DNA from: Candidatus Cloacimonadota bacterium
GTDB taxonomy: Bacteria; Cloacimonadota; Cloacimonadia; JGIOTU-2; B8-G9
NCBI GenBank assembly: GCA_003647765.1
Contig: QMNM01000059.1
Location: 1-7,509, forward strand
Direction of reading: 5' to 3'
DNA: 7,509 nt
Shown here: one piece after another, positions 1,169 through 7,144 of the stretch
How the letters are laid out: every line of letters begins with the position of its first letter
Position numbering within the stretch: position 1 is the first letter of the stretch
Made by a program: the position numbers and the translations under genes
The notes under the pieces: generated by a model
The model's database searches: none
What the model was told of the DNA's origin: nothing
What the model saw: the letters and a program-made list of their open reading frames with translations, nothing else

Positions 1169-1258
1169 TCTTTAAGATTCTTTATTCTATTCTTTAGAGA
1201 TTTTCAATCGGTTAAATATACATATTAATAAGGTGTTATAATTGGACTAAAAATAAAA

Positions 1259-1351
1259 CTTCACATTCTACTCTTACTAACTTCACATTCTACTCTTACC
1301 AAAATCCAAAAACTTCACATTCTACTCTTACCTTCACATTCTACTCTTACC
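1259..1351 (+). repeat. iteron array of the replication origin (four direct repeats)
   Basis: Four direct copies of CTTCACATTCTACTCTTACC occur at 1259-1278 (last base T), 1281-1300, 1313-1332 and 1332-1351, the last two sharing one C. Start-to-start distances are 22, 32 and 19 bases, so the first two steps are near two and three helical turns. Direct repeats of this length just upstream of a Rep_3 initiator are the standard binding sites for monomeric Rep in iteron plasmids. No canonical TTATCCACA DnaA box was found beside them. The AT-rich stretch at about 1352-1427 is a candidate unwinding element. Confidence 0.88.
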
Positions 1352-1399
1352 ATAAAACTTTATACTACACACTATTAAATGTAAAGAAATAACTACATA

Positions 1400-1460: not shown

Positions 1461-2672
1461 ATGAGAAAAGACATTTTTGAAGTTCATAAACCTAGTGCTT
1501 TAATTAGTGCTGAATACAAAACTCCAATCATACAGAGAGGTAGAATAAAAGGTTACGAGCATTACACATTGACACCAATTCAACATGATGCTATGAATTA
1601 TATGTGTTATATTGCTAGAGAACAAATTCATAAGAGGGTTAAAGTTGCTGAAACAATTGAAGCATTTTCTTCTGAGGATGAATTATTTGAATTTTTAGAG
1701 GTTCAACATTTTGAGATTAATCTTAAAGAGTTGTCAGATTTTACAGACAAGTATAAACACAAGCAAGATAAGAATGAGTTATCTGCAATATTGGATGCTC
1801 TTTGTGCCGTTCAAGTAAAAGTTGGAATATTCAAACAAGATGCGGCACTTGGTGAAATTCATGCAGTAAAAACAATGTCATTGCTACGAAATTATACACG
1901 AGTAACAAATAGCACTGTTGCTGATTTCCAATTAGAACCAGAAATACTATTAGGATGGATTCATAAGACTAAACCATTCGCAAAACTATATCTAAAGATT
2001 CAGACAAAATTGAAACTTACTTACTCCAAAATACTTTACGAGAACTGTAAAGATTATGAACGTTTGAAAAAGCCCCTCACAAAATCTTTTGAAGATTGGG
2101 TTAGAGTTCTTGGTATAGATAAGACAAAATCAAACACTGGAACTCCAAGTCAATTAAAAGCAGCTTATCTTAATAAAGCCATAAAAGAGATAAATGAACA
2201 CACTGATATTTTTATTGATGATATTAAGGGTAAAAAAACAGATGGTAAAACTATTATGACTGTTGAATTTCATACACAGAAATGCGATTTAATTGAAGAT
2301 GACGATGCAAATTTATCAATTGATGAACAGATAATGAAATCGAAGAAATTAACTATTGCACACGAGCGATTAAATAAGTCAAAACAGTATCAAACAATAA
2401 CAAATGAAAAGGCTTGGTTGAAGAAAACAGTTGAATCAATCACAGATGATTTTGTACATCAATTAGATATGATAGAAGAGGCAAAGTTAGTATTGGATAC
2501 ATTTGACATTAAACCTTTTATGGATAAGCTAACAAATAAATATAGTGATTTTATTGGTATGAAGGATTACAAGCTAATATACTTATTTGATGAAACAAAA
2601 GGGGATATAACTAAAAATGCCCTTGAAACTTATAAGATATTAGAATCTCTTGCAGATGAGATTATTAGTTAA
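1461..2672 (+). CDS. Replication initiator protein, Rep_3 / RepB family
   Basis: This 403-residue protein is the likely plasmid replication initiator, binding the iterons at 1259-1351 and recruiting the host replication machinery. Residues about 35-170 fit the first winged-helix domain, beginning with an LTPIQ-type helix. Residues about 175-270 fit the second winged-helix domain. Family hallmarks there are a KLYLKIQTKLKLTYSKILYE-like segment (175-194), an FEDWVRVLGI helix (210-219), a lysine-rich helix leading to AIKEINEHTDI (240-250), and a strand ending VEF (268-270). The remaining C-terminal part, about 275-403, is charged, mostly helical and longer than in minimal Rep proteins. AAAGGA stands six bases before the ATG. 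The stop overlaps the stop of the convergent gene in one TTAA. Rep level is probably set by the inverted iteron upstream. Confidence 0.88.
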   Translation: MRKDIFEVHKPSALISAEYKTPIIQRGRIKGYEHYTLTPIQHDAMNYMCYIAREQIHKRVKVAETIEAFSSEDELFEFLEVQHFEINLKELSDFTDKYKHKQDKNELSAILDALCAVQVKVGIFKQDAALGEIHAVKTMSLLRNYTRVTNSTVADFQLEPEILLGWIHKTKPFAKLYLKIQTKLKLTYSKILYENCKDYERLKKPLTKSFEDWVRVLGIDKTKSNTGTPSQLKAAYLNKAIKEINEHTDIFIDDIKGKKTDGKTIMTVEFHTQKCDLIEDDDANLSIDEQIMKSKKLTIAHERLNKSKQYQTITNEKAWLKKTVESITDDFVHQLDMIEEAKLVLDTFDIKPFMDKLTNKYSDFIGMKDYKLIYLFDETKGDITKNALETYKILESLADEIIS

Positions 2673-4173: not shown

Positions 4174-4416
4174 TTAGATTAATAACTCTGGGTGTTCTTT
4201 GAAATTTAATATCATGTTTAATCTACGAAGTAATAACATAAACATTTTGTCATCAAAAGAATTGCTTTTAGAGTTCATCAATAACTTGATAAGTGGGACA
4301 CAATCACTCTTGTCCATAGTATTAAAATCCCTTGGTCTATAAGTTCTATTCACCAAATCTATTTCTTCTTTATTAAGGGGTTTTAAGTCCAAGTCTAAAA
4401 TAGAAGTTAAACCCAT
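4174..4416 (-). CDS. small hypothetical protein (80 aa) ending HPELLI
   Basis: I do not recognise this protein. An acidic, leucine-rich N-terminus (MGLTSILDLDLKPLNKEE) leads to a polar middle (about 22-37), then a long helix (about 56-72) with a hydrophobic and arginine-rich face, and the tail HPELLI at 75-80. The ATG at 4416 lies inside the last codons of the upstream gene, giving a 10-base overlap. The site before it, AGAATT, is a poor ribosome site, so translation probably depends on coupling to that gene. The tail is not needed as a ribosome site here because the next gene starts 47 bases later with its own AAAGGA. This supports selection on the peptide itself. Confidence 0.68.
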   Translation of the reverse strand: MGLTSILDLDLKPLNKEEIDLVNRTYRPRDFNTMDKSDCVPLIKLLMNSKSNSFDDKMFMLLLRRLNMILNFKEHPELLI

Positions 4417-4664
4417 AATTCTGGCGATTCATTCATAAATTTCTTAACAATATATTTTGGAACTAAATAATATCCTTGGAAACTAATATTCCATTTACTC
4501 AATTGAATATGTGGCTCTTGCATCATTAATACTGATTTCTTATCTTCAAAATAAATCTTTCCACCATCAACTTTTTTAACCTTGAATATTGTGTCCTTTG
4601 TTACTGAATACAAATATTGACCCTTTCTAACATAACTTTCACTAATATCTAAGAAATTATTCAT
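4407..4664 (-). CDS. small hypothetical beta-rich protein (85 aa) ending SPELWV
   Basis: I do not recognise this protein. Residues about 16-65 alternate hydrophobic and polar residues (LYSVTKDTIFKVKKV, GKIYFEDKKSVLM, ISFQGYYLV) and look like a small beta barrel. A short helix (70-78) and the tail SPELWV (80-85) follow. An ATG at 4670 is also open, but I prefer the ATG at 4664. It forms an ATGA overlap with the upstream stop and sits eight bases after GGAG, whereas 4670 is only two bases from it. The gene overlaps its downstream neighbour by 10 bases. It is a middle gene of the tightly packed minus-strand operon. Confidence 0.7.
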   Translation of the reverse strand: MNNFLDISESYVRKGQYLYSVTKDTIFKVKKVDGGKIYFEDKKSVLMMQEPHIQLSKWNISFQGYYLVPKYIVKKFMNESPELWV

Positions 4665-4993
4665 ATCCATTTCTCCGGGTATTTTAATTTTGATTGTTCG
4701 ACTAAATCTTTGAAATAATCATCCATCTGCACATTAATTCTTGAAGCTTCATATACACTAAATTTAAGGAAAGCATCTTCATCTTCAAAAACATTACTAC
4801 TTATTGACCACTCATCTACACTTTCATAAATATCGTCCAGCGGACACATAAAATAAAATCGTTCTCCGTCATCCATTCTGTGTGTTGTATGTGTATGCAC
4901 CATTGGTATAATGGATTCAAAATAATCCTTATTAAAGGTCTGAAAGAAACCTCTCTGTAATAAATATATTTTATTTATTTCTAAATCATTCAT
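4661..4993 (-). CDS. small hypothetical acidic protein (110 aa) ending YPEKWI
   Basis: I do not recognise this protein. It is acidic and aromatic, with a histidine-rich segment HTHTTH at 33-38 followed by a strand FYFMCPLDD (46-54), an acidic stretch (52-73), and a C-terminal helix (about 89-103) leading to the tail YPEKWI at 105-110. The frame is open from a TTG at 4999, but the ATG at 4993 is preferred because it overlaps the upstream TGA as ATGA and has GAGG seven bases before it. The histidines could bind a metal, but no known motif is completed. It is co-translated with both neighbours. Confidence 0.7.
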   Translation of the reverse strand: MNDLEINKIYLLQRGFFQTFNKDYFESIIPMVHTHTTHRMDDGERFYFMCPLDDIYESVDEWSISSNVFEDEDAFLKFSVYEASRINVQMDDYFKDLVEQSKLKYPEKWI

Positions 4994-5250
4994 AACCAAG
5001 CCTCTGGGTACGTATCTATTGGCTTCAATAAATGTAATTCTGTAAGAACCCTATTCGCATTCTTATTCATACTATAAGCCGAGTGCTTTTCAGATACATT
5101 AGTTATTTTTAATACAAAGTTCCTAACAAACGGAAACCCAAATTTTAATACCATTTCTTCTGCAGATATTCGTGGATTGACCATACAATCAATGGACTTC
5201 ATTTTTTTTATCTCTATATCTATATCTTTTTCTGGTTTGTTTATGTTCAT
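4990..5250 (-). CDS. small hypothetical protein (86 aa) ending YPEAWL
   Basis: I do not recognise this protein. A charged, lysine-rich and acidic N-terminus (1-19) precedes a hydrophobic segment FGFPFVRNFVLKI (37-49) that is too polar to be a membrane helix. A helix (about 63-75), a short linker and the tail YPEAWL (81-86) follow. AGGA lies eight bases before the ATG at 5250. It begins the overlapped run of four genes, because its TGA overlaps the next ATG. Its last codons CCAGAGGCTT are identical in DNA to those at the end of the 5300-5605 gene, although only this copy overlaps a following start codon. Confidence 0.7.
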   Translation of the reverse strand: MNINKPEKDIDIEIKKMKSIDCMVNPRISAEEMVLKFGFPFVRNFVLKITNVSEKHSAYSMNKNANRVLTELHLLKPIDTYPEAWL

Positions 5251-5299: not shown

Positions 5300-5605
5300 T
5301 TAAATTAAAGCCTCTGGATATAGATATTCCATTTCAGCCATAAATTCTTTTGTGAAGTATAATTTGATACTTCCACCGGTAGTTTGGAATGTTATTCCGT
5401 CAACAACCATAACTTGAGGGTAATATTGTTTTATGGCAGAGTTTATTTCACTCTTTAATTTATGGATGGTCTGTTCTGATTGGATTTCAAAGGTATATTT
5501 CTCATATATCTCTTGAACTAAAGGGAAAAGTGAAACAGCATTGTATTTATTTTGGTTCTCTAATTGAACCATTATTTGAGGTATATTCATATGTATATTA
5601 TACAT
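5300..5605 (-). CDS. small hypothetical protein (101 aa) ending YPEALI
   Basis: I do not recognise this protein. It has a polar helical first half (about 9-60), then strands around residues 64-84 (VMVVDGITFQTTGGSIKLYF), a helix (86-94) and the tail YPEALI (96-101). The start is uncertain: ATGs at 5605 and 5590 both lack a Shine-Dalgarno site. A TATAAT at 5602-5597 would start RNA close to 5590, so the shorter form could be read from a leaderless message. The longer frame is listed as the conservative choice. It diverges from the kinase gene at 5644 with 38 bases between. An antitoxin role for that kinase is possible by position only. Confidence 0.66.
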   Translation of the reverse strand: MYNIHMNIPQIMVQLENQNKYNAVSLFPLVQEIYEKYTFEIQSEQTIHKLKSEINSAIKQYYPQVMVVDGITFQTTGGSIKLYFTKEFMAEMEYLYPEALI

Positions 5606-5643: not shown

Positions 5644-6219
5644 ATGAAAAAAATACAAATAACAGATATTAAAAATATCACGGATAAACCGCTCTATATT
5701 CTTATAGCAGGTGCAATTGGTTCTGGCAAAAGTACAGTAGTATCAAAATACTTATCAGATTTTAATATAGTAGATCCTGATATTTTCACTATGCAATTGG
5801 GTCGTGGAGTATATGACGATAAACATGTAGCAACCTCTATGGCAATGACAAAGGCTACGGTCTTATCATTATTAAAAGGTGATGAATCTTTTATACAACA
5901 AGGAACATCAGCCAATCTACAATCTTCATTGAATAAAATGATGAATGCCAAGAAGAATGGGTTTACTACTATATTATTATATGTAGATACCCCACTTGAA
6001 AAATCAATTGAAAATGTAACCAATAGAACTGATAGAAATAATATTCCATCGTATAAAGTTGAAAGAACACATAACGGTGCGTTATTAACTTATCAAGTTT
6101 TAACAGATACAGTTGAAGATATGTCGAGAGTTATTCCATCTTTACAAAGCACACTTTTAACTATGGAAGCGGCACAGGCTCTTACTGACTATACTATCCA
6201 CTATAAAAATTCTTATTAA
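5644..6219 (+). CDS. zeta-toxin-like / phage-type P-loop kinase
   Basis: This 191-residue protein is a P-loop nucleotide kinase resembling the zeta toxin and related AAA_33-type kinases. Zeta toxins phosphorylate UDP-activated sugars, while relatives phosphorylate nucleic acids or small molecules. Walker A reads GAIGSGKS at 23-30. A VDPD motif (43-46), a GTSANL segment (87-92) where zeta proteins have their substrate-side motif, a LLYVDTP strand (111-117), and arginines R128, R131 and R141 in the lid region all fit the family. It is shorter than typical zeta toxins of about 270 residues. No epsilon antitoxin is recognisable. The divergent 5300-5605 product is the only close neighbour upstream. 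No ribosome site is strong. The fold is confident, but toxin activity is not shown. Confidence 0.8.
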   Translation: MKKIQITDIKNITDKPLYILIAGAIGSGKSTVVSKYLSDFNIVDPDIFTMQLGRGVYDDKHVATSMAMTKATVLSLLKGDESFIQQGTSANLQSSLNKMMNAKKNGFTTILLYVDTPLEKSIENVTNRTDRNNIPSYKVERTHNGALLTYQVLTDTVEDMSRVIPSLQSTLLTMEAAQALTDYTIHYKNSY

Positions 6220-6226
6220 TTTTTTG

Positions 6227-6286
6227 TATAATGATTTCCAAGGTATTTGAGATAACTTCAAAACTAACCTAAAGATAACTTCAAAA
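6227..6286 (+). promoter_or_regulatory. promoter and tandem 14-base repeats before the polymerase-like gene
   Basis: TATAAT at 6227-6232 follows a T tract and would give a leader of about 57 bases. Inside that leader AGATAACTTCAAAA occurs twice, at 6250-6263 and 6273-6286, exactly 23 bases apart or about two helical turns. The second copy runs into the AAGGA ribosome site at about 6285-6289. A protein or RNA binding the repeats could therefore control transcription or translation of the gene at 6296. Confidence 0.5.
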
Positions 6287-6295
6287 GGAAACATT

Positions 6296-7144
6296 ATGCA
6301 AGATAATATTGCTACAGTCTTTAGTCAATACATTAAAGACAACGATTTAACACAAGATAACTACAACGCGAAATTACATGAAATTTCTTACATCACATTC
6401 TTCAATGATATAACATCTAATATTTTAGGTGCTCCATTATATACACATGATAAATGCCCCACTACAACAAACTCAATTGTTTATATTGCTGATTCAGCAA
6501 AAGAAATGTTTATTTCAGGAGTAGATATTCTGACTATTAATTCATTATATCATGGTGCTATAACACGACTTGAGTATAATTACCCAAATTACCCAGAGTT
6601 TCTTAATAGTATGTTCTCTTTGCGAAAGAAGATGAAGAAAAAAGCTTTTAATGAAGATATTTACCATGAAGCAAACCTTACTCAGACTCTCATTAAAATA
6701 TATTTGAATTTAGTTTATGGAATGATTGATAATGCACAGTCAATACTTACTTCTTCACACGATACACCACGATCATTTATTGTGGAAAGTTCAAGAAAAG
6801 CAATATTAAGTGTTACAGCATTCCTATTAAATAAGGGTATTCCAGTGTATTACATTGACACTGATGAAATTCACTGTGGAAGTATTTCATTAGAGAATTA
6901 TGCTGAACTTCAAGACTACTATAATGATACTTCAAAAACACATATAGATACTAAAATTTCTACTATGAATAAAGATTCTGATGGTTTTACGAATGGATAC
7001 TACAAGGCTAAAAAACAATTTGTTCTTGGTGCAAAAACTAAGATGCAAGGTTTGAATGAAGTAAATGACACTAATGTGAAGTTTGATAACAAGAAATACT
7101 TTGGTGTCACTTTTCCACATCAATTTCCAGAATATGCGATATAA
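6296..7144 (+). CDS. mini family B DNA polymerase-like palm protein, degenerate motif A
   Basis: This 282-residue protein matches the palm and fingers core of family B DNA polymerases. Motif B is K134-xxx-N138-xx-Y141-G142 (consensus KxxxNSxYG). Motif C is Y186-I-D188-T-D190-E. A KKxY-like motif, AKKQFVLGAKTKMQGL, lies at 238-253. The finger segment SLRKKMKKKA (108-117) precedes motif B as expected. Motif A appears as NSLYHGAI (82-89), but the position of the metal-binding Asp, three before Ser83, is Thr80; the nearest Asp is D77. There is no room for the 3'-5' exonuclease domain, and full enzymes are at least twice as long. AAGGA six bases before the ATG and its own promoter region indicate a real gene rather than a 3' remnant. 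It ends FPEYAI, like the minus-strand small proteins. It may be inactive or need a partner chain. Confidence 0.78.
   Translation: MQDNIATVFSQYIKDNDLTQDNYNAKLHEISYITFFNDITSNILGAPLYTHDKCPTTTNSIVYIADSAKEMFISGVDILTINSLYHGAITRLEYNYPNYPEFLNSMFSLRKKMKKKAFNEDIYHEANLTQTLIKIYLNLVYGMIDNAQSILTSSHDTPRSFIVESSRKAILSVTAFLLNKGIPVYYIDTDEIHCGSISLENYAELQDYYNDTSKTHIDTKISTMNKDSDGFTNGYYKAKKQFVLGAKTKMQGLNEVNDTNVKFDNKKYFGVTFPHQFPEYAI

Follow-up and report, generated by a model that had tools for sequence, protein, structure and literature searches.

A diverged family B DNA polymerase core in a 282-residue protein encoded on a plasmid-like contig of a Candidatus Cloacimonadota bacterium

The open reading frame at positions 6296..7144 (+ strand) of the 7509 bp window analysed here, which is the entire contig C85, encodes a protein of 282 residues, named P0001, in which profile matches and hhalign comparisons identify a truncated family B DNA polymerase (PolB) core. 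Residues ~99-196 constitute this diverged core. The best explanation for P0001, held with about even confidence, is that it is a truncated, inactive pseudo-polymerase, i.e. a PolB segment located on an iteron plasmid. Its features are those of an inactive remnant or of one half of a polymerase rather than of a new miniature enzyme.

A coding gene on a fragment with an iteron-type replicon

The P0001 ORF is a real gene. It starts with an ATG codon, which is preceded at a distance of 5 nt by the Shine-Dalgarno-like sequence AAAAGGAA (6283..6290, + strand). The GC content by codon position (0.37/0.30/0.22) is coding-like, codon usage gives a positive score in frame 0 alone, and the chance of encountering 282 open codons at the local base composition is ~1e-10. 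The initial annotation had assigned to the gene its own promoter-like region and ribosome site; the ribosome site is confirmed but the promoter is not, as nine promoter-like matches were found compared to 11.3 expected in shuffles. The frame can be extended upstream by 14-15 codons. No motif A is present in these in-frame codons, nor in any frame of the 180 bases that precede the gene.

The window originates from a metagenome-assembled genome (MAG) of 1.97 Mb in 360 contigs with a completeness of 88.8%. Its ends do not overlap and contig C85 is therefore a fragment, which most probably derives from a plasmid or a plasmid-like phage. It is incomplete at the right end, where the last gene, the start of a C5 methyltransferase gene that begins 3 bases past the P0001 stop codon, runs off the contig. 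A Rep_3-type replication initiator gene (1461..2672, + strand), recognized by Pfam and NCBIfam profile matches and indicative of a plasmid context, is preceded by four iterons of ~19 nt each (CTTCACATTCTACTCTTAC; 1256..1355, + strand), a combination that suggests theta replication. An inverted partial iteron copy is located between the iterons and the start of rep (1427-1446). The initiator gave no tblastn match among 72,556 plasmids. The contig also contains a gene for an N4/N6-type DNA methyltransferase and a series of small unknown genes. A zeta-toxin/polynucleotide-kinase-like P-loop protein, which has no obvious antitoxin and shows a weak match to the MADS defence protein mad8 (E=1e-4), is encoded at 5644-6219, immediately ahead of the PolB-like gene and the C5 methyltransferase gene.

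P0001 ends with the tail FPEYAI (7124..7141, + strand), a motif shared by six proteins of the window. The pattern [YFSH]PE-x-[AWL]-[ILV]-stop terminates 6 of the 13 complete window proteins (HPELLI, SPELWV, YPEKWI, YPEAWL, YPEALI and FPEYAI), for which the chance is ~1e-22, and occurs once internally. The tail-bearing genes are located at 4174-4416, 4407-4670, 4661-4999, 4990-5250 and 5300-5605 (all - strand), and at 6296-7144 (+ strand). This PExxI-like tail might serve for sorting, degradation or the binding of a partner. Among the overlapping small genes there are three whose PE codons coincide with the would-be ribosome site of the next gene.

Fingers and motifs B and C of family B polymerases

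The sole Pfam match of P0001 was PF00136 (E=0.0032), whose 16.7 bits are below the curated cut-off of 23, and its sole NCBIfam match was PRK05761, a family B polymerase model (E=7.6e-4). When the whole protein was analysed by hhalign, canonical PolB palm profiles (built from phage, haloviral and E. coli PolBs) reached 91-92% and a second set of profiles based on protein-primed PolBs reached 48-83%, while shuffles did not exceed 0.9%. Analysis by segment showed that residues 99-146 match canonical PolBs at 92-93% (z 13-15) and that residues 99-196 do so with a z of 20; core probabilities overall were 91-95%, with z 12-20 versus shuffles. Motif C scored with protein-primed PolBs too. No score was obtained for residues 197-282 with either the canonical or the protein-primed profiles, and a narrow protein-primed profile applied to the whole of P0001 was barely above shuffles. 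HMMER searches with small profiles were weak: P0001 topped 20,001 sequences, yet remained close to the best shuffles, which it failed to exceed in a larger set. Individual haloviral polymerases, on the other hand, align in register across residues 100-207 (L117, z 8.3). These results uphold the initial proposal of a PolB-like, exonuclease-free protein of only 282 residues, a length much below that of a polymerase. CGTase matches of P0001 in the PDB were dismissed as compositional.

The fingers, delineated by hhalign of segment 99-146 against canonical PolB profiles, correspond to residues 99-133 (PEFLNSMFSLRKKMKKK...; 6590..6694, + strand) and are followed by motif B, KIYLNLVYG (residues 134-142; 6695..6721, + strand), which according to hhalign and the alignment carries the characteristic K134-x3-N138-x2-Y141-G142 arrangement; for fingers and motif B the hhalign probabilities were 92-95% with z 13-20. 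Motif C, YIDTDE (residues 186-191; 6851..6868, + strand), was placed by hhalign with D188-T-D190 in register. Further downstream, KKQF (239-242) or LGAKTK (244-249) is a candidate KKxY or KxY primer-binding motif (7010..7042, + strand) with two possible registers; the region scores significantly in neither PolB family. That motifs B, C and KKxY-like occur in this order had been observed before, and the observation holds: the whole motif string was found in 0 of 200,000 shuffles, and motifs B and C alone in five of 200,000. The spacing between motifs B and C is 54, compared with 52-53 in canonical PolBs and ~73-76 in protein-primed PolBs, indicating that the TPR2 that protein-primed enzymes contain between these motifs is lacking. 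The 3'-5' exonuclease domain and the thumb are also absent from the 282 residues.

P0001 thus resembles the canonical RNA/DNA-primed PolBs of haloviruses and T4-like phages (HCTV-5, T4 gp43) in its fingers, motifs B and C, KKxY-like site and B-C spacing. It differs from them in having no N-terminal domain, exonuclease or thumb, in its unrecognisable pre-fingers region, and in having DTDE instead of the DTDS of the canonical haloviral and T4-like enzymes.

The N-terminal segment and motif A

The initial annotation had designated T80-I-N-S-L-Y85 (6533..6550, + strand) as motif A, with Thr80 at the position of the metal-binding aspartate. SLY is literally present at residues 83-85, three residues after Thr80, but the assignment is not supported. 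When residues 1-98 were compared with the canonical PolB pre-fingers region, 304 of 400 shuffles scored at least equally well, and segment 47-98 gave a z of about 1 against the canonical profiles. As residues 1-98 are unlike the canonical pre-fingers region, a motif A at 80-85 is disfavoured.

Residues 5-98 (6308..6589, + strand) displayed a weak, consistent match to protein-primed PolBs and none to canonical ones. Using 42 protein-primed PolBs, picked without L017 (a sequence that was first found via P0001), the mean observed for residues 1-98 was reached by 0 of 400 shuffles. In 39 of the 42 alignments D77 falls on the Asp that is conserved in 'TDVDFxIIxxxY', close to where TPR1 ends. The earlier suggestion that D77 is the metal ligand in a compact enzyme is not supported. 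A multiple alignment gave the same register, placing DKC, N59, D77, Y85, LNxxYGM, DTD, LGAK and GL on conserved columns. Residues 5-98 may thus be a TPR1-like segment. Motif A of protein-primed PolBs is located ~12 residues ahead of the point that is paired with Met1. P0001 apparently begins just after motif A, and would hence lack the true aspartate; judged from its sequence, the metal-binding Asp of PolB motif A (Dx2SLYP) appears to be missing, a Thr being present at the sole SLY. Asp249 of Dx2SLYP is cited as critical in PMC6921018, which also describes TPR1 residues, including Glu291, Arg306 and Glu322, within the phi29 range 265-358.

Structural models were of low confidence. AF2 run on the single P0001 sequence gave a pLDDT of 33. 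A second model, which is circular as evidence since it was built on a protein-primed alignment of IMG/VR loci, had a mean pLDDT of 48 with residues 31-95 as its best part. Residues 5-105 of this low-confidence, circular model superimposed on phi29 265-358 (Z 5.4, rmsd 3.5, 82 residues), and several unrelated chains scored equally high against it. The VIA comparison also returned TnpB, Wzc, RRF and other chains, which were rejected as covering only a long helical stretch with low pLDDT.

The two halves of P0001 point to different branches of the family: to canonical PolBs in the case of the fingers and the B-C spacing, and to protein-primed ones in that of the N-terminal segment. P0001 shares with protein-primed PolBs (Astrithrvirus type, phi29) the elements DKC...N..VYIAD...VD...Y, LNxxYGM, LGAK and GL in register, but unlike these it lacks exonuclease, motif A, the TPR2 region and thumb, contains KTK for KxY, and has no identified terminal-protein gene on the incomplete contig. 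The view that P0001 is wholly protein-primed was weakened; its strength came partly from L017, which had been chosen for similarity, and it was retested without that sequence. L017 (MT835939.1, 179-2530) is a clear gut-phage protein-primed PolB without a Pfam match even at E=10, so that part of the protein-primed PolB group is invisible to Pfam. An assignment of D38 as motif A, obtained with a MAFFT alignment, was discarded because it depends on the alignment and residues 1-98 score no better than shuffles against the canonical pre-fingers region.

Origin of P0001 and alternative readings

Under the preferred explanation, P0001 would consist of the fingers and the motif B/motif C part of the palm with a TPR1-like segment ahead, starting about a dozen residues after the expected motif A and ending without a thumb. 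It may have originated as a phage polymerase segment that was captured and whose frame is still open, and would now either be decaying or be retained as a DNA- or partner-binding protein. The intact frame and normal codon use argue against simple decay. On its own P0001 should not polymerise DNA, as it has no exonuclease, no thumb and no identifiable motif A aspartate, a residue that the prototype of the protein-primed enzymes requires.

No relatives of P0001 were found in phages, plasmids, IMG/VR, ~85,000 genomes or 124 genomes of the phylum, all of the latter belonging to the same class. The IMG/VR scans were based on exact and degenerate motif patterns, widened using altered copies of P0001, and tblastn searches of phages and plasmids, with E-values of up to 10 accepted, produced a single match, itself a protein-primed PolB. 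Remote relatives do have this region at the 3' end of a longer polymerase gene, yet a close homologue that would show a recent break was not detected.

An unlikely though by no means negligible alternative is that P0001 is the C-terminal subunit of a split polymerase, that the part of the plasmid not covered by the contig encodes an N-terminal protein with the exonuclease and motif A, and that the two chains together form an active enzyme. Phages commonly have split PolB genes, as seen in PAC2, PTm1, F379, VPALA and KP13-7, and one has been described in MIJ3 (PMC6892783). Like the split PolBs of MIJ3, PTm1 and Campylobacter phages, P0001 is a polymerase portion encoded by a separate short ORF; its start falls on a domain boundary, the ORF is an intact coding frame, and its contig is not complete. 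Unlike those, it has no intein and no partner was found in the MAG: the PF03104 exonuclease is absent from the whole 88.8% complete MAG, and neither PF03175 nor any protein-primed profile matched elsewhere in it, so that the separate exonuclease or N-terminal PolB gene looked for did not emerge. Moreover, none of the known splits that were compared lies directly past motif A; they fall within the intein at motif C or at other places. P0001 in addition lacks TPR2-like spacing and the thumb. The only other PolB of the MAG, on contig C324, was rejected as a partner, since it is a polymerase of the jumbo-phage type that includes half of an intein. This T4-like fragment (L006; G000:C324, 479-1276) has its DTDS motif interrupted by an N-terminal intein half that terminates in a stop codon, adjoins a convergent GGDEF-EAL gene, and is closest to the Pseudomonas phages PA5oct and MIJ3, which have a split PolB with an intein.

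Also doubtful is the view that residues 80-85 of P0001 are the motif A of a compact PolB, in which Thr80 replaces the aspartate and D77 is perhaps used instead. By eye 'SLYHGAITRLEYNYP' looks like 'SLYPSIIRTLNISP', the B-C spacing is canonical, and one small protein-primed profile built without L017 dissents from the other results by setting residues 67-90, and with these T80, on motif A (z 4.4); within the canonical profile can3, too, motif A is the best-scoring position, though not significantly so (z 0.8). Against this, residues 1-98 do not rise above shuffles in the canonical comparison, nearly all protein-primed alignments take another register, and only ~15 residues would separate SLY from the fingers, compared to ~45 in real PolBs.

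We regard it as improbable that P0001 is a stably kept, plasmid-borne PolB derivative of fingers and palm only, in which TPR1 is present and motif A absent, and which either serves as a non-catalytic factor that binds DNA or a primase/terminal protein, or has its active site completed in trans by a separate exonuclease/motif A chain, the polymerase being split directly behind its first catalytic aspartate. Finally, it is very improbable that the true gene is longer and lost its N-terminal half by a frameshift or an assembly error in this metagenomic contig: the MAG is fragmented and homologous polymerases have 570-900 aa, but the upstream region consists of the intact kinase gene and a short spacer without motif A, and the thumb is missing at the other end as well, just ahead of the methyltransferase gene.

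Both the pseudo-polymerase and the split-subunit options of the initial annotation stay. Caution about the inactivity of P0001 is warranted, because archaeal PolB2, labelled inactivated from its sequence (Rogozin 2008, PMC2527604), proved active in later work (Feng 2022, PMC8764526). P0001 is like PolB2 and other supposedly inactivated PolBs in belonging to family B with catalytic features lost. Active PolB2, however, is full-length with a disrupted motif C, whereas P0001 has kept motif C and misses its N-terminal half.

As it stands, the case of P0001 mainly cautions that, in a fragment of a diverged polymerase, a short 'SLY' is insufficient to call a motif A whose catalytic residue is mutated. 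If selection keeps P0001, the protein would show which part of a PolB is useful without catalysis or, alternatively, would reveal a split point inside the palm that is unseen in the phages compared.
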